The notes under the pieces were generated by a model. The model saw nothing but the letters and a program-made list of their open reading frames with translations, was not told where the DNA came from and ran no database searches. Below are positions 514 to 11,443 of a stretch of DNA of 45,896 bases, piece after piece. The translations under genes were made by a program, and so were the position numbers. The stretch covers positions 1-45,896 of the forward strand of contig NZ_JABEMA010000003.1 in NCBI RefSeq assembly GCF_013004605.1, given 5' to 3'. Every line of letters begins with the position of its first letter. Positions within the stretch are counted from its first letter, which is position 1. Source of the DNA: Pseudokineococcus marinus (GTDB lineage Bacteria; Actinomycetota; Actinomycetes; Actinomycetales; Quadrisphaeraceae).

Positions 514-3480
514 GTGCTCACCGCCGAGTCCCCCACCGCCGCAGCCGCGACCGCCGAGGAGGTGGACCTCTCGGGCCCGTGGGCGATGGCCCTCGACCGG
601 GACGACGCCGGCGAGGACCAGCGCTGGTACGCCCGAGACCTGACCTGTGACGGCGGAGCCGACGATGGGGCCGGCGGCGGGACCGTCCACCTGCCGGGGT
701 CGCTGCAGGAGCAGGGCTACGGCGACGAGGTCACCGCGGAGACCGCCTGGAACGGCCAGGTGGTCGACCGCTCGTACTACCTCGACGACCGCTACGCGCC
801 CTACCGCGAGCCCGGGAAGGTCGCCGTCCCCTTCTGGCTGCAGCCGCGCCGCTACTACCGCGGGGCGGCCTGGTACCAGCGCACCGTCCAGGTGCCGGCC
901 GCCTGGGCGGGCCGCCGGGTCGTCCTGGAGCTCGAGCGCGTGCACTGGGAGTCGACGCTGTGGGTCGACGAGCGCCGCGTCGGCTCGGAGCGGAGCCTGT
1001 GCGCCCCGCACCGCTACGACCTCGGCGTCCTCGCGCCCGGCGAGCACCGGGTCACGCTGCGCGTCGACAACCGCACGGTCGTCGACGTCGGGCCCAACGC
1101 CCACAGCACGACCGACCACACGCAGGGCAGCTGGAACGGCGTCGTCGGCCGGGTCGCGCTGCGCGCCCGGCCGGACGTCGTCGTGCGCCGCGTCCGCGTC
1201 GTGCCGCGCGTGGCCGACCGCGCCCTCACCGTGCGGCTCGACCTCGCCGGCGGGCCGTCGGGCGTCGGCGCGGGACGCGTGGTCCTCACCGCCCGGCGCT
1301 GCGACGACCTCCCCGGCCCTCGCGGGCCCGAGCCGGAGCCCCTCGTCGTCGACTACGCCTTCGACGCCGGCATGAGCCCGCGGGGCCTGTCCGCCACGAC
1401 GGCCCACCTCGACGTCGACCTGCCGCTCGGCGACGGCGCCGCCCTCTGGGACGAGCACTCCCCGGCGCTGTACGCCCTCGAGGTGGCCCTCGAGCCCGAG
1501 GGGCGCCCGGAGGACCGCACGGTGCGGCGCACCGTCGTCGGGCTGCGCGAGGTCTCGGTCGTCGGCACGCAGATCGCCGTGAACGGCCGCCCCACCTTCG
1601 TGCGCGGCACCCTCGAGTGCTGCGTCTTCCCCCTCACCGGGTACCCGCCCACCGACGTGGCGTCGTGGGCGCGGATCGTCGCCGTCTGCCGCGCGCACGG
1701 GCTCAACCTCCTGCGCTTCCACTCCTGGTGCCCGCCGGAGGCGGCCTTCCGGGCGGCCGACGAGGCGGGGATGCTCCTGCAGGTCGAGGGCCCGGTGTGG
1801 GCCAACCAGGGCGCCTCGCTCGGAGAGGGCGGCTCGCTGGACGCCTTCGTCCACGAGGAGACGCGAGCGGTCCTCGACGAGTTCGGCGACCACCCCTCCT
1901 TCGTCGTCATGGCGCACGGCAACGAGCCGTCGGGGCGCGACGCGGAGTTCCTCGGCGACTGGGTCACCACGTGGCGCCGGCGCGACCCGCGGCGCCTCTA
2001 CACGAGCGGCGCCGGCTGGCCCGCCATCGTCGAGAACGACCTCGACAACGTCTCCGAGCCGCGGCTGCACCGCTGGGACGAGGGGCTCGGCTCGCGGCTC
2101 AACGCGACCCCGCCGACGACGGACGCCGACTACAGCGCCTGGGTGGAGGGCGCGGCGCGGCCCGTCGTCAGCCACGAGGTGGGGCAGTGGTGCGCGCACC
2201 CGTCCTTCGCCGAGCGCGCCAAGTACACGGGGCTGATGCAGCCGCGGAACCTCGACGTCTTCGCCGACTTCCTCGAGCAGGGCGGGATGGGCGACCAGGC
2301 GGAGGACTTCCTCCACGCCTCGGGGCGCCTGCAGCTGCTCTGCTACAAGGAGGAGGTGGAGGCGGCGCTGCGCACGCCCGGCTTCGGCGGCTTCCACCTC
2401 CTCGGCCTGTCGGACTTCCCCGGGCAGGGCACGGCGCTCGTCGGCGTCCTCGACGCGTTCTGGGAGGGCAAGGGCTACTGCGAGCCCGAGGAGTTCGCGC
2501 GCTTCTGCGGGGTGACGACGCCGCTGGCGCGCCTGCCGCGGCGCGTGCTCGCCGCAGGCGACGACCTGGTCTTCGAGCCGCAGGTCGCCCACTTCGGCGC
2601 CGGCCCGCTGCGCGCGAGGACGACGTGGCGGGTGCTCACCACCGACGGCGGAGGCGGCGGGGAGGCCCTCGGCGGAGACGTCGTCGCCGAGGGCGTGGTC
2701 CCGGGCGAGGAGGTGCCGGTCGGCAACGCCCGTCGCCACGACGTCGTGCGCGTGCCGCTCGAGGCGGTCGGGCGCGCGGTGGCCGCGAGCGGCACGGGGG
2801 TGCGCCTACGGCTCGAGCTGGCGGTGGTCGACCTCGACGGCGGGGCCGAGCACCGCAACGACTGGGACGTGTGGGTCTTCCCCGCCCCGGCCGCCCGCCG
2901 GTCGGACGAGGGGGCCGCAGCCGGCGTCGTCGTCACCCGGGCCCCGGACGAGGCCGTCCGGCGCGCCGACGCCGGCGAGCGCGTCGTCCTCGTGCCCCCG
3001 GCGGCGAGCCTGCGCGACGACGTCGCCCTCGGCTTCACGCCGGTGTTCTGGAACACGGCGTGGACCAAGGGGCAGGCGCCCCACACCCTCGGGCTGGTGC
3101 ACGACGCGCAGCACCCGCTCTTCGCGCGCTTCCCCTCCACGGGCCACACGGACTGGCAGTGGTGGGAGGTGCTGCACGGCGCCCGGGCGATGCAGCTCGA
3201 GGGCCTGCCCCGTGCGCTGCGGCCGGTGGTCCAGCCCATCGACACGTGGTTCTCCGCGCGCCGCCTCGGGCTCGTCGTCGAGATGGGCGTCGGAGACGGG
3301 GCGCTGCTCGTCTGCTCGGCCGACGTCCTCGACGCCCCCGCCGACCGCCCGGCCGCCGCGGCCTTCCGCGACGCGCTGCTCGCGTACGCGGCCGGGCCGG
3401 ACTTCGCGCCCGGCGTCGCGGTGAGCGCGACCGAGGCGGGGAGGTGGCTGGCGGACGTGTCCGTCGACGTGCCCGAGTGA
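514..3480 (+). CDS. Glycoside hydrolase family 2 protein (beta-galactosidase/beta-glucuronidase-like)
   Basis: A 988-residue protein with the GH2 order: sugar-binding jelly roll (about 20-190), Ig-like sandwich (about 195-345), TIM barrel (about 350-660) and a long extra C-terminal part (about 660-988) rich in beta strands. The acid/base is read as E471 in HGNEPSG and the nucleophile as E555 in SHEVGQW, both placed as GH2 expects. There is no signal peptide, so it should act in the cytoplasm on imported oligosaccharides or glycosides. Substrate cannot be told; the SHEVGQWC context is seen in plant-polysaccharide GH2 enzymes as well as galactosidases. The GTG at 514 is chosen because the leaderless -10 box fits it and a longer frame would overlap the upstream gene. 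Confidence 0.88.
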   Translation: MLTAESPTAAAATAEEVDLSGPWAMALDRDDAGEDQRWYARDLTCDGGADDGAGGGTVHLPGSLQEQGYGDEVTAETAWNGQVVDRSYYLDDRYAPYREPGKVAVPFWLQPRRYYRGAAWYQRTVQVPAAWAGRRVVLELERVHWESTLWVDERRVGSERSLCAPHRYDLGVLAPGEHRVTLRVDNRTVVDVGPNAHSTTDHTQGSWNGVVGRVALRARPDVVVRRVRVVPRVADRALTVRLDLAGGPSGVGAGRVVLTARRCDDLPGPRGPEPEPLVVDYAFDAGMSPRGLSATTAHLDVDLPLGDGAALWDEHSPALYALEVALEPEGRPEDRTVRRTVVGLREVSVVGTQIAVNGRPTFVRGTLECCVFPLTGYPPTDVASWARIVAVCRAHGLNLLRFHSWCPPEAAFRAADEAGMLLQVEGPVWANQGASLGEGGSLDAFVHEETRAVLDEFGDHPSFVVMAHGNEPSGRDAEFLGDWVTTWRRRDPRRLYTSGAGWPAIVENDLDNVSEPRLHRWDEGLGSRLNATPPTTDADYSAWVEGAARPVVSHEVGQWCAHPSFAERAKYTGLMQPRNLDVFADFLEQGGMGDQAEDFLHASGRLQLLCYKEEVEAALRTPGFGGFHLLGLSDFPGQGTALVGVLDAFWEGKGYCEPEEFARFCGVTTPLARLPRRVLAAGDDLVFEPQVAHFGAGPLRARTTWRVLTTDGGGGGEALGGDVVAEGVVPGEEVPVGNARRHDVVRVPLEAVGRAVAASGTGVRLRLELAVVDLDGGAEHRNDWDVWVFPAPAARRSDEGAAAGVVVTRAPDEAVRRADAGERVVLVPPAASLRDDVALGFTPVFWNTAWTKGQAPHTLGLVHDAQHPLFARFPSTGHTDWQWWEVLHGARAMQLEGLPRALRPVVQPIDTWFSARRLGLVVEMGVGDGALLVCSADVLDAPADRPAAAAFRDALLAYAAGPDFAPGVAVSATEAGRWLADVSVDVPE

Positions 3481-3530
3481 CCCTGGGGTCGCCGTCCGGC
3501 CGCCCCGCTGGGCGCCCGGTCGCCGCTCGC

Positions 3531-4703
3531 CTATCCAGCCCGGCGGGCGGCGTCGTCCTCCTCGTCGAAGACGATGACCTGCCGGATCGCCGCACCGTCG
3601 GCGAGCGCGTCCATGGCCTCGTTGACGTCCTCGAGCCGCGTGCGCGCGGAGATGAGCGCCTCGACGGGCAGCCGCCCCTCGCGCCACATCTGCGCGTAGG
3701 TCGGGATGTCGCGGGCGGGCACGGCCGAGCCGAGGTAGCTGCCGATGATGGTGCGGGCCTCGGCGGTGAGTCCGAGGGGCTTGATGGCCGCCTCGGCGGT
3801 CGGCGCGGGCAGGCCCACGGTCACGGTCGTGCCGCCGACGCCGGTGAGCGCCACCGCGGTCTCGAAGGCGCGCGCGTTGCCGGCGGCCTCCACGACGACG
3901 GGCGCTGTGAGCCCGGCCTCGAGGGCCTCGGCGGGCGAGAGCGCCTGCGCCGCCCCCAGCTCGAGCGCGCGGGCCAGCTTCTCCGGCACCGCGTCCACGC
4001 CGATCACGGGGCCGCGGCCGAGCGACACGGCGGTGATGAGCGCCGCCATCCCGACCCCGCCGAGCCCCACGACGACGACGGTGTCGCCGTCGCGCGGCCG
4101 CCCGGCGTTGAGCACGGCCCCGCCGCCGGTGAGCACCGCGCAGCCGAGCACGGCGGCGACCTCGGCCGGGACGTCGTCGTCGACGGCCACGACGGAGCGG
4201 CGGTCGACGACGGCGTGCGTCGCGAAGCCGGAGACGCCGAGGTGGTGGTGGACCTCGTCGCCCGCACCGACCGCGTCGTCACCCTCGCCGAGCGGTGCCG
4301 TCGCGTGCAGCCGCCGCCCGCCGGCCAGCAGCTCGCCGGCGTTGTTGGACGCCGAGCCCCGCGTGCACGGCAGCCGGCCGTCGGTCCGGCAGCCGTCGCA
4401 CTCCCCGCAGCGCGGCAGGAAGGCCATGACGACGCGCTGGCCGACGGCGAGGTCGTCGACCTCGCTGCCGACGCGCTCGACCCGTCCGGCGGCCTCGTGC
4501 CCGAGGAGCATCGGCACCGGGCGCACGCGGTTGCCGTCGACGACGGAGAGGTCGGAGTGGCAGACGCCGGCCGCCTCGATCCGCACGAGCACCTCGGTGG
4601 GGCCCGGGTCGTCGAGCTCGAGCTCGACGACGGAGATCGGCCGTGTGTCGCGGTAGGGGCGCTCGTCGCCGATGCGCTCGAGCACCGCGCCGCGGATCCT
4701 CAT
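3531..4703 (-). CDS. Zinc-dependent alcohol dehydrogenase, MDR superfamily
   Basis: A 390-residue medium-chain dehydrogenase that oxidises an alcohol or reduces an aldehyde with NAD(P). The catalytic zinc ligands are C48 in AAGVCHSD and H69 with E70 in GHE, with a later Cys in VLGCAVLTGGG. The structural zinc cysteines are C99, C102, C105 and C113. The Rossmann motif is VVGLGGVGMAA. This is the class III/aryl alcohol-type subgroup by overall pattern. GAGGAGGCGGC immediately precedes the ATG. The stop of a possible 32-codon reading frame overlaps the start as ATGA. It converges with the GH2 gene, 50 bp apart. Substrate unknown. Confidence 0.9.
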   Translation of the reverse strand: MRIRGAVLERIGDERPYRDTRPISVVELELDDPGPTEVLVRIEAAGVCHSDLSVVDGNRVRPVPMLLGHEAAGRVERVGSEVDDLAVGQRVVMAFLPRCGECDGCRTDGRLPCTRGSASNNAGELLAGGRRLHATAPLGEGDDAVGAGDEVHHHLGVSGFATHAVVDRRSVVAVDDDVPAEVAAVLGCAVLTGGGAVLNAGRPRDGDTVVVVGLGGVGMAALITAVSLGRGPVIGVDAVPEKLARALELGAAQALSPAEALEAGLTAPVVVEAAGNARAFETAVALTGVGGTTVTVGLPAPTAEAAIKPLGLTAEARTIIGSYLGSAVPARDIPTYAQMWREGRLPVEALISARTRLEDVNEAMDALADGAAIRQVIVFDEEDDAARRAG

Positions 4704-5621: not shown

Positions 5622-6491
5622 TCACCCACCCGACGCCCCGCCCCGCGGCCCGTCGTCGTAGGTGTCCATCGCCCGCCACGCGCGCTGCACGCCCTGGAGG
5701 GCCGCGCGTGTCTGCTCGGGACGGCTCGCCTGCATGCCGGCGAGCAGCCCGTAGACCACGGCGGTGATGGCCGTCACCGACTGGAAGAACGAGACGCCCT
5801 CGCTCGGCACGATGAGCGGCACGTCGGAGACCTGCGCGACCGGACCCCGATCGAGGTCGCTGATCGACACCACGCGCGCACCGGCCGACCGGGCGGCGCG
5901 CGCGGCGGCGAGCAGCTCGCGCATGGGGCGCCACGGGTTGACGAGGAGGACGACGTCGCCCGGCCCCAGCGCCGAGACGGCGGTCGCCAGGTGCGGGCCG
6001 CCCCGTGACTCCAGCTGCGCCCGGTAGCCCATCGTCGCGGCGAGGTGGGCGAAGACGGTCGCCGGCCCGGCGAACGAGCCCTGCCCGAGCACGAGCAGGT
6101 GCTCGGCCTCCCCCAGCGCCGCGACCGCACGCTCGGCGTCGTCGCGGTCGACCGTCTCGAGCGCGAGCCGCAGGTTCTCCATGTCGTGGCGGACGGCGTC
6201 GTGGACGACCCCGTCGGTCTCCCGGTGGTGCTGCTCGAGCGTCTGCTCCGTGGAGATCTCCAGCAGGTAGCGCGCCCGCAGCTCGTGCTGCAGCGTCGGC
6301 CACCCGCGGAAGCCGAGGCGCTGGGCGCAGCGGACGACCGTGCTCTTGTCGACGCCGGCGCGCGCGGCGATCGCCGCGACGTCGGAGTAGGACGCGAGCT
6401 GCTGGTTGCGCTTCACCGTCTCGAAGACGCGCTCCTGCGCCGGCGAGAGCCCCGCCGACGGGCGCAGGCCGTCGAGCCACGTGCTGATCAC
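5622..6491 (-). CDS. MurR/RpiR-family transcriptional regulator
   Basis: A 289-residue regulator with an N-terminal RpiR helix-turn-helix (roughly 10-85: LSPAQERVFETV, then DVAAIAARAGVDKSTVVRCAQRLGF) and a C-terminal SIS sugar-phosphate binding domain (about 115-265, with LLVLGQGSFAGPA and VVLLVNPWRP). Such proteins sense phosphosugars or related metabolites and usually control a neighbouring catabolic operon, here the divergent dehydrogenase operon. I chose GTG 6491 (VISTWLDGLRPS) over the longer open frame to 6584 because it has a GAGGGGGG ribosome site and the HTH follows at the usual distance. An unusual alanine/proline-rich extension would result from the longer start. Confidence 0.9.
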   Translation of the reverse strand: MISTWLDGLRPSAGLSPAQERVFETVKRNQQLASYSDVAAIAARAGVDKSTVVRCAQRLGFRGWPTLQHELRARYLLEISTEQTLEQHHRETDGVVHDAVRHDMENLRLALETVDRDDAERAVAALGEAEHLLVLGQGSFAGPATVFAHLAATMGYRAQLESRGGPHLATAVSALGPGDVVLLVNPWRPMRELLAAARAARSAGARVVSISDLDRGPVAQVSDVPLIVPSEGVSFFQSVTAITAVVYGLLAGMQASRPEQTRAALQGVQRAWRAMDTYDDGPRGGASGG

Positions 6492-6534
6492 GCCGTCACC
6501 GCCCCCCTCGCCCCGGCGGACGACGTCGAGCCGA

Positions 6535-6540
6535 ACTGTA
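6535..6540 (-). promoter_or_regulatory. Candidate -10 box (TACAGT) for the RpiR gene
   Basis: TACAGT on the minus strand would start transcription about 35 nt before the GTG at 6491. No convincing -35 hexamer is seen 16-19 nt upstream. Confidence 0.3.
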
Positions 6541-6615
6541 GGAGCCGCAGCGGGACCGGGCGGTCCGCGCCGTCCGACCCCCACCGACCGTCCGCGAACT
6601 CATGGACGCGATCCT

Positions 6616-6723: not shown

Positions 6724-7707
6724 GTGGACACCACCCCTCCCGACGGGGCCGCCCCGGCGGACCTCCCCAGCGACGGCGCGGGCGCCGAGCGGCGCGTCGC
6801 CGTCGTCGGCCTCGGCGCGATGGGCGGCGCCATGGCGACGACGCTGAACCGGGCCGGCTGGGCGGTCACGGGTTTCGACCCGTCGCCCGAGGCCCGGGCA
6901 CGCGCGGCCGACGCCGGCGTGGCGACGGCCGACCGGCTCGAGGACGTCGCGGGCACGCCCTTCGTCGTCCTCTCCCTGCCGTCGGCGCGCGTCGTCGAGC
7001 AGACGGTCCCCGTGCTGCTGGAGCGCGAGGGCACCCGCGTCGTCCTCGACACCACGACGTCGGAGCCCGCCACCAGCGAGGCCATGGCCGCCGCCGCCCG
7101 CGAGCGCGGCGCCGTCTTCGTCGACGCGCCCGTCTCCGGCGGCGCGAGCGGCGCGGCCACCGGGGCGCTGAGCGCCTTCGTCGGCGGCACCCCCGACGAC
7201 GTCCGCGCCGCCGAGCCGCTGCTCGCCGCGCTGACCGGCGGGCAGTACGCCGTCGTCGGCGGCACGGGCGCCGGCAACGTCGTCAAGCTCCTCAACAACG
7301 TGCTGTGCGCGACCAACCTCATCGCCGTCGGCGAGGCGATGGACGTGGCCGCCGCTCACGGGCTCGACCTCGCCACGGTCGCGCAGGCCGTCAGCGGCGC
7401 GTCGGGCGGCAGCGCCGTCACGGCGAACGCCCTCCCGCGGTGGGTGCTCTCGGGCACCTTCGACTCCGGCTTCGCCCTCGGCCTCATGGCCCGCGACGTG
7501 GGCCTCGCCCTCGACGTCGCCGCCGCCCGCGGGGCGAAGCCCGCGCTGCTCGCCGCGACGCACGACGCCTGGCAGCGCGCCCTCGCCGAGCGCGGCCCCG
7601 CTGCGGACTTCACCGAGGCCCCCGCCACCGCCGCGACCGCGACCACTGCCCTCGCGCCGGCGGACGCCACCGCGAGCTCCACGACCAGCAGCGAGGACGA
7701 CCGATGA
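6724..7707 (+). CDS. NAD(P)-dependent beta-hydroxyacid dehydrogenase (6PGDH/HIBADH superfamily)
   Basis: A 327-residue protein of the 3-hydroxyisobutyrate / tartronate-semialdehyde / threonate dehydrogenase family. It begins, after a disordered stretch, with the Rossmann motif VVGLGAMGGAMA; the substrate signature DAPVSGGASGAATG follows; the catalytic lysine is K188 in GAGNVVKLLNN. The C-terminal tail after about residue 295 is an Ala/Thr/Ser-rich extension. First gene of a four-gene operon with an ALDH (4-nt overlap) and two membrane proteins, so it likely oxidises a hydroxyacid whose semialdehyde product is the ALDH substrate. GTG 6724 is chosen because the Rossmann fold starts shortly after; a GCAGGA site precedes it. 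The exact substrate is not readable. Confidence 0.88.
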   Translation: MDTTPPDGAAPADLPSDGAGAERRVAVVGLGAMGGAMATTLNRAGWAVTGFDPSPEARARAADAGVATADRLEDVAGTPFVVLSLPSARVVEQTVPVLLEREGTRVVLDTTTSEPATSEAMAAAARERGAVFVDAPVSGGASGAATGALSAFVGGTPDDVRAAEPLLAALTGGQYAVVGGTGAGNVVKLLNNVLCATNLIAVGEAMDVAAAHGLDLATVAQAVSGASGGSAVTANALPRWVLSGTFDSGFALGLMARDVGLALDVAAARGAKPALLAATHDAWQRALAERGPAADFTEAPATAATATTALAPADATASSTTSSEDDR

Positions 7708-9299
7708 CGACGACCACCCGCCAGTCCGACGCCCCCGCCCCCGGCGCGCCTCCCGCTCCCCCGGCCGGGCCCGACGACCACCACCGCAGCGGCGCCGCGA
7801 CGGCGTCCGCCGTGCTGGCCGAGTCGCTGCCCTCGGGCCTCGGCTCCTTCGTCGATGGGCGCGTCGTCCCCGGCACGGGCGACGTCGTCGAGCTCGTCAC
7901 CCCCGCCACCGGCGAGGTCTTCACCTCCTACCGCGACGCCGGGCCCGACGTCCTCGACCGGCTGCTCGCCTCCTCCACCGAGGGCGCGCGCACGTGGGGG
8001 GCCACCGACCCCTTCGCGCGGGCCGCGACGCTGCGCGAGGTCTCCCGCGTCGTGGCCGCGCACGCCGAGGAGCTCGCCGTCCTGGAGTCGGCCACGACGG
8101 GCAAGCCGCTGCGCGACGCCCGCGCCGAGACCGGCCGCGTCGCCGAGATGTTCGGCTTCTACGCCGGGTGGGCCGACAAGGTCTCCGGCGACACCCTGCC
8201 CGTCCCCGGCGACTGGCTCACCTACACGCGCCGGGTGCCGTGGGGCGTCGTCACCGCGGTCACGCCGTGGAACGCGCCCGTCTTCACGGCGGGCTGGAAC
8301 TCCTCCGCGCCGCTGGCGGCCGGCAACGCCGTCGTCCTCAAGCCCAGCGAGTTCACGCCGGCCACCACGGTGCGCCTGGCCCAGCTGGCCCACGAGGCCG
8401 GGCTGCCGGCCGGGGTGCTCAACGTCGCCGTCGGCCTCGGCGCCACCACCGGCGCCGCCGTGACGACGGACCCGCGCGTCGGCAAGGTGAGCTTCGTCGG
8501 CTCGGTGCCCACGGGCCGCGCCGTCGGGACGGCGTGCGCCGCCGCCGGCATCCCCACCGTCCTCGAGCTGGGCGGCAAGAGCGCGACGATCGTGTTTGCC
8601 GACGCCGACCTCGACCGGGCCGCCGACGGCGCCGTCGCCGCGATCTTCGCGGCCGCCGGCCAGTCGTGCGTCGCGGGCTCGCGCCTGCTCGTCGAGCGGT
8701 CGGTGCACGCCGCGCTGCTGGAGAAGGTCGTCGAGCGCGCCGGGCGCCTGCGCCTCGGCGACCCGCTGGACCCCGCGACCGAGGTCGGGCCCATCGTCAC
8801 GGCCGGTCAGCACGCCCGCGTGCGCGCGCTGCTCGAGCTCGGGCTCACCGACGGCGCGATCCGCGCGACCCCCCTCGCCGAGACGCCGTCGGGCGACCTC
8901 GCCGGCGGCCACTGGGTCGCGCCCACGGTGCTCGACGGCGTCACGCCGGCCAACGCGCTGGAGACCACCGAGGTCTTCGGGCCCGTCCTCGGCGTCGACG
9001 CCTTCGACACCGAGGAGGAGGCCGTCGCCCGCGCCAACGCCACCGGCTTCGGCTTGGCCGGCTCGGTGTGGACGAACGACGTCTCGCGGGCGCACCGCGT
9101 CGCCGCGGGCGTGCGGGCGGGGACCTTCTGGGTCAACGCCTGCAAGACCATCCACGTCGCCGTGCCGTTCGGCGGCTTCGGCGACTCCGGCCACGGGCGC
9201 TCGTCCGGGCCCGGCGTGCTCGACGAGTACACGCAGCTCAAGGCCGTTTGGGTGCCGGTGCAGCCCGTCGGCGCCCCGTTCCCCTCGCTCGGCTACTGA
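7704..9299 (+). CDS. NAD(P)-dependent aldehyde dehydrogenase
   Basis: A 531-residue ALDH. After about 45 residues of Pro/Ala-rich leader the family fold begins (LGSFVDGRVV). The catalytic cysteine is C322 in AGQSCVAGSR and the general base E288 in LELGGKS; the PWNAP and TFWVNACKTI regions are present. The ATG overlaps the TGA of the dehydrogenase as ATGA, pointing to coupled translation. With its partner it probably completes oxidation of a small alcohol or hydroxyacid to a carboxylate. It is of the betaine-aldehyde/aminobutyraldehyde-like general group; substrate unknown. The N-terminal extension is longer than usual for the family. Confidence 0.92.
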   Translation: MTTTTRQSDAPAPGAPPAPPAGPDDHHRSGAATASAVLAESLPSGLGSFVDGRVVPGTGDVVELVTPATGEVFTSYRDAGPDVLDRLLASSTEGARTWGATDPFARAATLREVSRVVAAHAEELAVLESATTGKPLRDARAETGRVAEMFGFYAGWADKVSGDTLPVPGDWLTYTRRVPWGVVTAVTPWNAPVFTAGWNSSAPLAAGNAVVLKPSEFTPATTVRLAQLAHEAGLPAGVLNVAVGLGATTGAAVTTDPRVGKVSFVGSVPTGRAVGTACAAAGIPTVLELGGKSATIVFADADLDRAADGAVAAIFAAAGQSCVAGSRLLVERSVHAALLEKVVERAGRLRLGDPLDPATEVGPIVTAGQHARVRALLELGLTDGAIRATPLAETPSGDLAGGHWVAPTVLDGVTPANALETTEVFGPVLGVDAFDTEEEAVARANATGFGLAGSVWTNDVSRAHRVAAGVRAGTFWVNACKTIHVAVPFGGFGDSGHGRSSGPGVLDEYTQLKAVWVPVQPVGAPFPSLGY

Positions 9300-9343
9300 C
9301 CCGCCCCCATCCCCCGCCCCGCCCACACCCCCGGAGGAACCGC

Positions 9344-10195
9344 ATGGACAGGCCCGCAGACCTCGTGGCGGCGTGGCGGCTCCTGGCCGTCGCGCTGGTC
9401 ATCGTGGTCCTCTCCCAGCTCCTCGGCATCCGCCGCATCGAGGTGGGGATCGGCACCATCCTGCTGCTGCCGCTGCTCTACGCCTTCCTCGCGGGGCTGG
9501 TGCTCAACCCGAGCATCACCGGCCGGGTCGGAAAGGTGTTGGGACGCCGTGAGGTGCGGCTCGCGTCGCCGCTCATCATCGTGGCGATCCTGCCGTTCAT
9601 CGCCCGCTTCGGGACGACGATCGGCCCCGACATCGAGGCGGTCATCGCCGCCGGGCCGGCGCTGCTGCTGCAAGAGCTCGGCAACCTCGGGACGATCGTC
9701 CTGGCCTTCCCCGTCGCCGTGTACCTGCTGAAGCTGCGCCGCGAGGCTGTCGGGGCGACGTTCTCCGTCGCCCGCGAGCCGAGCCTCGCGATCATCGCCG
9801 ACCGCTACGGCCTGCGCGGCCCCGAGGGCGCCGGCGTCCTGGCCGTCTACGTCGTCGGCACGCTCGTGGGAACCATCGTCTTCTCGGTGATGGCGAGCTT
9901 CGTCGCCTCGCTCGACGTCCTCGACCCCCGGGCGCTGGCCATGGCCTGCGGGGTGGGCAGCGGCTCGATGATGGCCGCCTGCAGCGGCGCGCTCGCGGCC
10001 ACGCTGCCGGAGATGGAGGACACCATCCTGGCCTTCGCCGGCACGAGCAACCTCCTCACCTACGCGACGGGCATGTATGTGACGCTCTTCGTCGCCCTGC
10101 CGCTCGTCGAGTGGATGTACCGCAAGGCCCACCCCGAGGACACCCGCGCCGCGGCGACGCCGGCGGCCACGAGCGACGAGGAGGGCGCCCGATGA
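9344..10195 (+). CDS. DUF3100-family membrane protein
   Basis: A 283-residue integral membrane protein with about seven to nine hydrophobic segments. Conserved DUF3100 blocks are readable: IGTILLLPLLYA near the start, LLLQELGNLGTI, REAVGATFSVAREPSLA, VYVVGTLVGTIVF, and ACGVGSGSMMAACSGAL. The glycine/serine-rich GVGSGSMM loop is the sort of motif that lines a substrate path. The family has no established function that I know of; a carboxylate transporter is a reasonable guess from the operon. GGAGGAAC lies 5-8 nt before the ATG at 9344. The stop overlaps the next gene's ATG (ATGA), so the two are probably made in step. Confidence 0.85.
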   Translation: MDRPADLVAAWRLLAVALVIVVLSQLLGIRRIEVGIGTILLLPLLYAFLAGLVLNPSITGRVGKVLGRREVRLASPLIIVAILPFIARFGTTIGPDIEAVIAAGPALLLQELGNLGTIVLAFPVAVYLLKLRREAVGATFSVAREPSLAIIADRYGLRGPEGAGVLAVYVVGTLVGTIVFSVMASFVASLDVLDPRALAMACGVGSGSMMAACSGALAATLPEMEDTILAFAGTSNLLTYATGMYVTLFVALPLVEWMYRKAHPEDTRAAATPAATSDEEGAR

Positions 10196-10686
10196 GCGCC
10201 ACGCCGGTCGATGACGTCGAGGACACCCAGGACGAGCGGCTGTCCCTGCCGAGCGAGATGACGGCGCTGCTCGCCGTCCTGCCCCTCGGCTGGGCCGCCC
10301 AGCTCATCGCCACCGACCTGTCCGCCCTGCGCGCGGCCGCCGGCGTGCTGGCCCTCGGGCTCATCGCTGTGATCGGCATCCTGCTCACCCGCGCCCTGCC
10401 GTTCCTGCGGTTGCCGAGCGTCGCCTGGGTCTCGCTCGTCGGCATCGTCGCGAGCCTGCCGATGCTCCCCTGGGGCGAGGCCGTGGTCGGCGTGGTCGGC
10501 GAGATCGACTTCCTCGCCCTGTCCGTGCCGTGCCTGGCCTTCGCCGGGCTCGCCATCTCCCGGCGGGAAGTGGCCATCGCCAAGACGTCGGGGTGGAAGC
10601 TGCTCGTCGTCGGGGTGCTCGTGCTGATCGGGACGTTCATCGGGTCGGCGCTCATCGCGGACGTGACGCTGCCGTTGCTGGAGTGA
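10192..10686 (+). CDS. Small membrane protein paired with the DUF3100 protein
   Basis: A 164-residue protein with a charged N-terminus (DDVEDTQDERL) and about four to five membrane segments. It overlaps the DUF3100 gene by ATGA. I recognise no family name for it. The pairing of a larger and a smaller hydrophobic protein resembles two-subunit transporters such as malonate MadLM, and the operon context suggests it imports the substrate of the upstream dehydrogenases. This is inference from layout, not from sequence similarity that I can point to. Confidence 0.75.
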   Translation: MSATPVDDVEDTQDERLSLPSEMTALLAVLPLGWAAQLIATDLSALRAAAGVLALGLIAVIGILLTRALPFLRLPSVAWVSLVGIVASLPMLPWGEAVVGVVGEIDFLALSVPCLAFAGLAISRREVAIAKTSGWKLLVVGVLVLIGTFIGSALIADVTLPLLE

Positions 10687-10822: not shown

Positions 10823-11443
10823 GTGCTCGCTGACGAGATCGCCGACCGCTGGCCCCGCCTCTTCCACATGGCCGAGGCGGGGTCGTGGCCGTCGATCCAG
10901 CGTCACGGCCTGCTCTCCACGCAGGCGCTGTGCGACCTCTACGACGTCCGGCAGCCGCACCGCGACGACCTCCTCGCGCGCAAGCGCCCGCAGTCGGTGC
11001 AACTGGCCCACACGGAACACGGGACGGCGTGGGTCCGAGACAACAAGCCGATCAACGAGACCGTGCTGCGCCGGACGCTCGTCGGCATGGACGAGGCGAG
11101 CTGGTACCGAACACTCAACAGCCGCGTCTTCTTCTGGCTCAGCGAGGAGCGGCTCGCCAAGTTGCACGCCGCTTACCGCGGGCGCAGGCACGACCTACTC
11201 GTCGTCAGCACCGCGAAGCTGCTCGCCGCGCACGGCGGCGAGGTGGAGCTGTGCCCGCTGAATAGCGGCGCCGTCCACGCCGGCGCTGTCGTGACCCGCG
11301 GGGCGGAGACGTTCCGTCGCATCGCCGACTACCCGTGGGAGGAGCGTCGGCGCATCACCCGTCGTGAGCCGGTGGTCGAGCTGACGGTGCCGTACGCCGT
11401 CCGGGACATCGCCGACCTCGTCGAGGACGTCCGCGCCCTGTGA
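10823..11443 (+). CDS. DUF7002-family protein, possibly ADP-ribosyltransferase-like
   Basis: A 206-residue protein. The N-terminus LFHMAEAGSWPSIQRHGLLS resembles the opening of DarT/DUF4433-type ADP-ribosyltransferases ('H.t...nl.sI...GL'), followed by NSRVFFWLSEERL (a strand-helix core) and later LCPLNSGAVHAG. I believe it belongs to what databases call DUF7002, but this is from memory of the pattern. If it has the ART fold, H15 near the start and the RVFFW strand would be the nicotinamide-binding elements; a classic catalytic Glu is not obvious. Start GTG 10823 has no clear ribosome site. It is followed 60 bp later by an OGG-fold gene on the same strand, at the edge of an accessory region. 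Confidence 0.65.
   Translation: MLADEIADRWPRLFHMAEAGSWPSIQRHGLLSTQALCDLYDVRQPHRDDLLARKRPQSVQLAHTEHGTAWVRDNKPINETVLRRTLVGMDEASWYRTLNSRVFFWLSEERLAKLHAAYRGRRHDLLVVSTAKLLAAHGGEVELCPLNSGAVHAGAVVTRGAETFRRIADYPWEERRRITRREPVVELTVPYAVRDIADLVEDVRAL

Follow-up and report, generated by a model that had tools for sequence, protein, structure and literature searches.

The window analysed here is a stretch of 45,896 nucleotides from Pseudokineococcus marinus (Actinomycetota; contig NZ_JABEMA010000003.1), which carries an operon for two dehydrogenases, a protein of the DUF3100 family and an unnamed membrane protein of 164 amino acids (aa). That the last two form a two-subunit transporter is strongly supported by their constant pairing, by natural fusion and by the predicted fold. 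The preferred reading, which has an even chance of being correct, is a two-chain elevator transporter importing N-acylated amino acids, often hydroxy-amino acids, for the neighbouring enzymes. The analysis itself shows the family assignments, the constancy of the pairing, the occurrence of natural fusions, a predicted fold and the neighbour statistics. A literature search turned up no mention of DUF3100 or PF11299; further searches revealed no relevant system for N-acyl amino acid transport, nor, among the matches listed, for N-acetylserine uptake or catabolism of t6A. The order of the operon had been mapped in a first-pass annotation and was confirmed by translation and family searches; the genes and the divergent regulator gene are listed below.

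5622-6584, minus strand, RpiR/MurR-type regulator gene; PF01418 (HTH_6) 42.2 bits and PF01380 (SIS) 31.1 bits, both above cut-off
6724-7707, plus strand, HIBADH-family beta-hydroxyacid dehydrogenase; GTG start; PF03446 112.3 bits and PF14833 109.4 bits, above cut-off
7704-9299, plus strand, aldehyde dehydrogenase (ALDH); PF00171 E 7.6e-148, 493 bits
9344-10195, plus strand, DUF3100 protein, 283 aa; PF11299 E 2.6e-95, 318.7 bits (gathering cut-off 27)
10192-10686, plus strand, 164-aa membrane protein of an unnamed family; homologue of the C-terminal region in natural DUF3100 fusions

The HIBADH-like gene overlaps the ALDH gene, and the DUF3100 gene that of the 164-aa protein, by four bases (ATGA); a GGAGG motif is located at 9333-9337, upstream of the DUF3100 ATG. 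The start codons of the HIBADH-like gene and the gene of the predicted RpiR-type regulator are uncertain, as the family matches start at residues 24 and 44, respectively. The PF11299 match spans residues 22-260 of the DUF3100 protein and positions 1-234 of the 235 of the model. The 164-aa protein had no significant match in Pfam (best E 0.28) or NCBIfam (best E 0.32); profile A2, which was built with this protein, detected a single copy in the genome of the window (E 3.3e-52).

Both Pfam domains and the catalytic lysine motif GNVVKLLNN place the first enzyme in the beta-hydroxyacid dehydrogenase family. DAPVSGG and GNVVKLLNN, taken as substrate and catalytic motifs partly on the basis of the accessible portion of PMC3642240, are both present. 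The protein stayed below all listed NCBIfam equivalog cut-offs (HIBADH, tartronate semialdehyde reductase, threonate dehydrogenase, sulfolactaldehyde reductase; best 145.6 versus 291.6 bits), and no substrate was therefore assigned to it. Comparison with the L-serine 3-dehydrogenase of the PA0743 type (3obb, 3q3c) yielded E-values of 5.6e-32 and 1.1e-31, with other family members scoring higher. The second enzyme belongs to the ALDH superfamily according to PF00171 and the motifs ELGGK (residue 288) and GQSC (residue 319), which we take to be the catalytic Glu and Cys motifs. Its best models were betaine-aldehyde and aminoaldehyde dehydrogenases, below the cut-offs (TIGR01804, 447 of 668.6 bits; aminobutyraldehyde-type, 394.2 of 615 bits).

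Constancy of the pairing was assessed in several samples, with loci numbered L and genomes G. The closest 80 of at least 512 DUF3100 relatives formed an 80-locus set, which leans to Pseudomonadota. The partner lay beside the DUF3100 gene in 51 of these loci and was fused to it in 28 (79/80 in total); in the sole locus without it (L057), the contig ends 186 bases past the DUF3100 frame. Evenly drawn genomes provided a less biased test than nearest relatives. DUF3100 was found in 17 of 398 such Pseudomonadota genomes, and the partner profile matched the same 17, each time adjoining DUF3100 by coordinates, and gave a marginal fragment (E 9.6e-4) in one further genome. In Bacillota, the phylum of L097 (genome G822), DUF3100 was detected in 28 of 398 genomes, and the partner was present in all 27 loci examined (25 genomes); G943 and G1171, where the DUF3100 match was fragmented, and the broken second copy of G1158 were left out. 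Among 396 genomes of Actinomycetota, the phylum of the window, six had a DUF3100 match at E <= 0.001 and four one above the cut-off. Three of these four loci (the window, L147 and L148) possess the partner; the fourth (L004/L149, genome G228) has a broken DUF3100 gene, and no partner was found there. Towards its end, this broken gene departs from the family sequence and continues into a stretch behind which a 2Fe-2S-type frame follows. Outside the bacteria, the genome of Haloferax volcanii has a DUF3100 match.

On plasmids, DUF3100 was matched in 70 records and the partner in 62. Among the matches listed, 35 of 40 partner records were also among the 60 DUF3100 records, and the other five were from Bartonella; the DUF3100 count also includes five Bartonella records. 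The partner adjoined DUF3100 or was fused to it in all 24 stretches opened (23 by profile, L105 by annotation only). Enterobacterial plasmids (L013, L020, L105, L113) harbour a small island of DUF3100, partner and M20 hydrolase; three of these four loci also include a TdcA-like regulator. The E. coli version of this island occurs in 8 of 5,426 complete genomes, always on a plasmid.

The pairing is far above chance. The neighbourhood survey had been named beforehand as the check on the first-pass annotation: the small protein accompanied DUF3100 in all but one of the 80 loci, the commonest enzyme was M20, followed by the HIBADH-ALDH pair, and the opposite picture, DUF3100 mostly without the partner and among unrelated enzymes, was contradicted. 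The two-subunit transporter proposed at that stage is strongly supported by pairing in 79/80 loci, 17/17 Pseudomonadota genomes and 27/27 Bacillota loci, and by elevator-like models of the fusions.

Structures of two natural fusions were predicted with AlphaFold2. The fusion of L050 (432 aa, 60 aligned rows) was modelled with a mean predicted local distance difference test score (pLDDT) of 90.1 and a predicted template modelling score (pTM) of 0.87, that of L087 (438 aa, 47 aligned rows) with 88.3 and 0.86. The inner stretch of lowest confidence in both models was the linker that joins the DUF3100 and partner portions (block values of 57-73); the first ten residues of the L087 model were weak, too. 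Comparison by VIA-align placed the sodium/citrate symporter CitS at the top among the rows listed for both models, with Z 14.6, a root-mean-square deviation (rmsd) of 4.3 A and 297 aligned residues for L050 (residues 4-432), and Z 15.2, rmsd 4.8 A and 300 aligned residues for L087 (residues 8-438). VIA-align itself cautions that chance alone frequently gives helical models a Z close to 13-14. CitS was followed by NapA, NhaP, NHA2, SbtA, SOS1, SLC9 exchangers and homologues of bile-acid transporters, and PIN8 and the cholesterol sensor LYCHOS appeared lower down among the L087 matches. NapA, NhaP, SbtA, the bile-acid transporter homologues and other listed matches presumably represent the wider elevator-type fold group. 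A search of a viral structure library yielded nothing at E <= 0.001, and the best match of the DUF3100 profile to PDB sequences was only E 0.92. In Pfam, DUF3100 alone was reported for the window DUF3100 protein at E <= 1, with no model of the CitS family; for 60 relatives at E <= 0.01, DUF3100 plus two marginal single-member matches and nothing else were obtained.

An elevator-type fold for DUF3100 plus partner is likely, although not proven. Since the fold match runs through both parts, the two genes would most simply encode one protomer, of which the DUF3100 protein is the predicted larger half and the 164-aa protein the smaller. The claim that two crossing helices are contributed one per chain was dropped, with secondary structure alone to judge by.

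Companion enzymes were labelled by BLAST (E <= 1e-10) against references from DUF3100 loci within a radius of 8 kb, and background densities were determined with Pfam models. In the 80-locus set, an M20 hydrolase was present in 70 loci, HIBADH in 66, ALDH in 68, LysR in 68, and M20, HIBADH and ALDH together in 59. Thirty genomes of this set (141 Mb) contained M20 362 times and PF14833 154 times, corresponding to 0.045 and 0.019 expected occurrences per locus. Fifteen of the 17 evenly drawn Pseudomonadota loci were newly fetched; 11 of them had M20 and 13 HIBADH plus ALDH. The other two had M20 only (L049) or none of the three (L056). M20 was present in 21 of the 27 Bacillota loci and HIBADH-ALDH in none, so the hydrolase accompanies DUF3100 more widely, and the oxidising pair is an addition specific to certain lineages. 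The pairwise identities of HIBADH were correlated with those of ALDH at 0.83, those of DUF3100 with HIBADH at 0.43 and with ALDH at 0.28; these values are descriptive, as the sequences are related and not independent. Flanking genes were also scanned after selection by hand from sets of 194 and 378 uncatalogued frames. Ten of them comprised two regulators (LysR, GntR), one gene with no match and otherwise unrelated families; the 20 others comprised one M20, three Amidohydro_1 genes of the TRZ/ATZ type, one threonine-aldolase-type lyase and four transporters, the rest being seemingly unrelated or having no match.

The types of hydrolase across the loci point to an amide bond on an amino acid. 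The cassette M20 protein of L007 had five PDB matches, the nearest being YxeP, a plant IAA-amino-acid hydrolase and an N-acyl-glutamine aminoacylase. Deacylase candidates outside the M20D group occurred in single loci (AspA/AstE in L009, ArgE/DapE-like in L147), and L107 has a hydrolase resembling HmrA and Xaa-Arg dipeptidase, to which that of L148 is 74% identical. Enzymes of serine and threonine breakdown recurred: serine ammonia-lyase, by annotation or BLAST, in L010, L014, L049, L071, L114, L143, L145, L188 and L203; threonine dehydrogenase (Tdh) with 2-amino-3-ketobutyrate ligase (Kbl) in L019, L147 and L190, of which the L147 proteins each exceeded one NCBIfam equivalog cut-off; a threonine aldolase above the cut-off in L196; and an annotated threonine/serine dehydratase with Rid in L009. 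Of 44 genomes, five had SDH_alpha at most 8 kb away from DUF3100, versus 0.41 expected (Poisson P 6.5e-5); the five cases were read by eye, that of G411 (L049) had been known before the test, and that of G985 lies 7 kb off. Because an M20 N-acyl-amino-acid hydrolase is the commonest companion and some loci carry Ser/Thr catabolic enzymes, we propose that the substrate class be shifted from the hydroxyacid or sugar acid of the first-pass annotation, which no longer appears the best reading, to amide-linked amino acids, often hydroxy-amino acids, with a free acid kept as a rival for the window.

According to the preferred reading, DUF3100 and the 164-aa protein would together form one elevator-type secondary transporter with a fold like that of CitS, NapA and ASBT, for which a single chain would not suffice. 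It would import N-acylated, i.e. amide-linked, amino acids, often hydroxy-amino acids, for example serine or threonine. A cytosolic deacylase would free the amino acid; this would usually be an M20D enzyme, and in single loci one of the ArgE/DapE-like, HmrA/Xaa-Arg-dipeptidase-like or AspA/AstE-like type. The HIBADH-like dehydrogenase may then oxidise the beta-hydroxyl of the freed amino acid and ALDH the resulting (amino)aldehyde; serine ammonia-lyase, threonine dehydrogenase with 2-amino-3-ketobutyrate ligase, or threonine aldolase may serve as alternative routes of breakdown. We infer the direction, coupling ion, substrate and reactions of this system. HIBADH-type oxidation of serine would lead to an unstable aminoaldehyde, on which a betaine-/aminoaldehyde-like ALDH could act. 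Enzymes of the HIBADH family oxidise beta-hydroxyl groups, and weak oxidation of L-serine by one tested member is described in the accessible part of PMC3642240.

A wider claim is advanced tentatively: the pair may represent a new importer family, elevators of two chains devoted to N-acylated amino acids and occurring in bacteria, haloarchaea and also on plasmids, which in many Pseudomonadota and actinobacteria would feed an otherwise undescribed route of deacylation, oxidation of the beta-hydroxyl of a serine-like amino acid, and oxidation of the aldehyde. Two function-less families would become one testable transporter with a short list of substrates, and the small protein would exist to complete the fold. 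The natural one-gene fusions (28/80 loci) ease expression and structure work.

Several findings weigh against import of N-acylated amino acids through an elevator. Plain Foldseek against the PDB returned no match at E <= 0.001, the first rows being GltPh with low TM-scores. M20 was missing from 5 of the 17 evenly drawn Pseudomonadota loci, and the HIBADH-ALDH pair, with 0/27 Bacillota loci, is no general component of the system. Five of the 27 Bacillota loci (L193, L196, L200, L201, L202) lacked M20, HIBADH and any confident Ser/Thr enzyme of the reference set (a 25% Tdh match in L201 was not counted as confident), and in three of these (L193, L196, L202) a TRZ/ATZ-type deaminase stands beside the pair. 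The Ser/Thr link is thin in the nearest relatives, where just 2 of 80 loci have serine ammonia-lyase inside the 8-kb radius, and the L009 dehydratase stayed under every listed NCBIfam cut-off. L-serine was a poor substrate of 3HIBDH-IV, with a Km of 117 mM, as far as PMC3642240 was accessible. The window itself carries no M20 gene; the four M20 matches of its genome are all on other contigs, one of them about 40% identical to the HmrA-like type. A Variovorax DUF3100 fusion (L016) is located near a DUF2817 gene and a true 1-aminocyclopropane-1-carboxylate (ACC) deaminase (645.9 bits, cut-off 392), neighbours which hint at an ACC conjugate as substrate.

The cassette of the window was compared with its relatives. 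The actinobacterial cassettes L107 and L148 consist of RpiR, two dehydrogenases, an HmrA-like M20 and a fused transporter, with RpiR homologues (57% and 53% identity, respectively) ahead of the same enzymes. Among the loci compared, the window HIBADH was nearest to those of L148 (65.5%) and L107 (59.8%), the ALDH likewise (70.5% and 72.8%), and the DUF3100 protein to that of Georgenia L021 (76.8%). An unlinked M20 might supply the deacylase in the window; alternatively, because the M20 gene is missing there, a hydroxy-amino acid or hydroxy acid may be taken up in free form.

Import of a free hydroxy acid or sugar acid by the same two-chain transporter, with direct oxidation by HIBADH and ALDH, is rather unlikely. 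The enzymes of the window belong to the hydroxyacid and aldehyde dehydrogenase families, and HIBADH-ALDH occurred without a detected M20 in the window and in 7 of 80 loci; however, three of these seven (L040, L084, L096) end at a contig border on at least one side, Ser/Thr enzymes recur across loci, and M20 lies within 8 kb in 70/80 loci and in 21/27 Bacillota loci, where HIBADH-ALDH was not found. The same transporter might instead export surplus amino acid, acyl group or a toxic intermediate arising from the hydrolase. Direction is not readable from the fold, one of the 60 members of A3 marginally matched LysO, a lysine exporter (PF03956, E 3.9e-4), and other possible importers were noticed nearby in some loci: DcuC (L186), MFS (L202), a xanthine/uracil permease (L203), a member of the Na/H antiporter family (L188) and amino acid ABC genes (L007). 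Export is nevertheless improbable, as the pair mostly adjoins a hydrolase or dehydrogenases in catabolic cassettes whose enzymes need their substrate inside.

Conjugates beyond simple N-acyl amino acids, for example amides resembling pantothenate or the t6A-derived threonylcarbamoyl compounds that arise in RNA turnover, are very improbable substrates. In L014, not far from a DUF3100 fusion, a Sua5-type threonylcarbamoyl-AMP synthase gene (3431-4405) does have serine ammonia-lyase and M20 beside it, L017 has pseudouridine catabolism genes, and the loci with TRZ/ATZ-type deaminases (L193, L196, L202) include one, L196, with a threonine aldolase as well; but each such neighbour was seen in one to three loci only. 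Pantothenate catabolism was considered and set aside, as nothing usable was among the literature matches listed and no locus specifically supported it. Fold likeness does not show function, and LYCHOS among the matches of the L087 model would suit a sensor or channel assembly with an elevator-like fold. This is the least probable of the explanations weighed: Pfam recognised DUF3100 alone in fusions and relatives, apart from the two marginal single-member matches, and the pair is frequently linked with catabolic enzymes.

Among known systems, CitS, a member of the 2-hydroxycarboxylate transporters (5xas, 5xat, 5a1s), shares the predicted fold over nearly the whole model (about 300 residues), and the fold only. 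Identity to CitS is 8-15%, no CitS-family Pfam match was obtained, and CitS is a single chain, whereas two genes are involved here. NapA, MjNhaP1, ASBT homologues and SbtA, which we take to be members of the cation/proton antiporter (CPA) and bile-acid/sodium symporter (BASS) superfamilies, were the next structural matches (Z about 10-13) at about 9-13% identity; they are single chains with ions, bile acids or bicarbonate as substrates. AbgT and AbgAB take up p-aminobenzoyl-glutamate and hydrolyse it with an M20 enzyme, and thus likewise pair a transporter with M20 hydrolysis of an N-acyl amino acid; the PDB matches of the L007 cassette M20 included a protein of aminobenzoyl-glutamate utilisation (3io1). 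AbgT belongs to a different transporter family, and its system is not known to include HIBADH-ALDH. DUF969/DUF979 have been proposed as a two-chain 5-oxoproline carrier of the ion-transporter superfamily (PMC11467057, accessible part). As here, two adjacent DUF genes encode one predicted transporter, and theirs are described in operons alongside genes for the metabolism of 5-oxoproline, which is a cyclic amide. Their two chains resemble each other in structure according to the same portion of that source, whereas DUF3100 and its partner showed no homology (hhalign probability 1.2), and a duplicated repeat was rejected. Neither protein of the window had a reported match to PF06149 or PF06166 (DUF969/DUF979) at E <= 1.

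Upstream of the operon, a GH2 protein resembling exo-beta-1,4-galactosidase (514-3480; 954 bits against a cut-off of 1500) and a zinc alcohol dehydrogenase (3531-4703) are encoded, neither of which was labelled as a cassette member in the neighbour rows. Immediately downstream of the operon lies an apparently unrelated DUF7002 gene (10823-11443; 220 bits).

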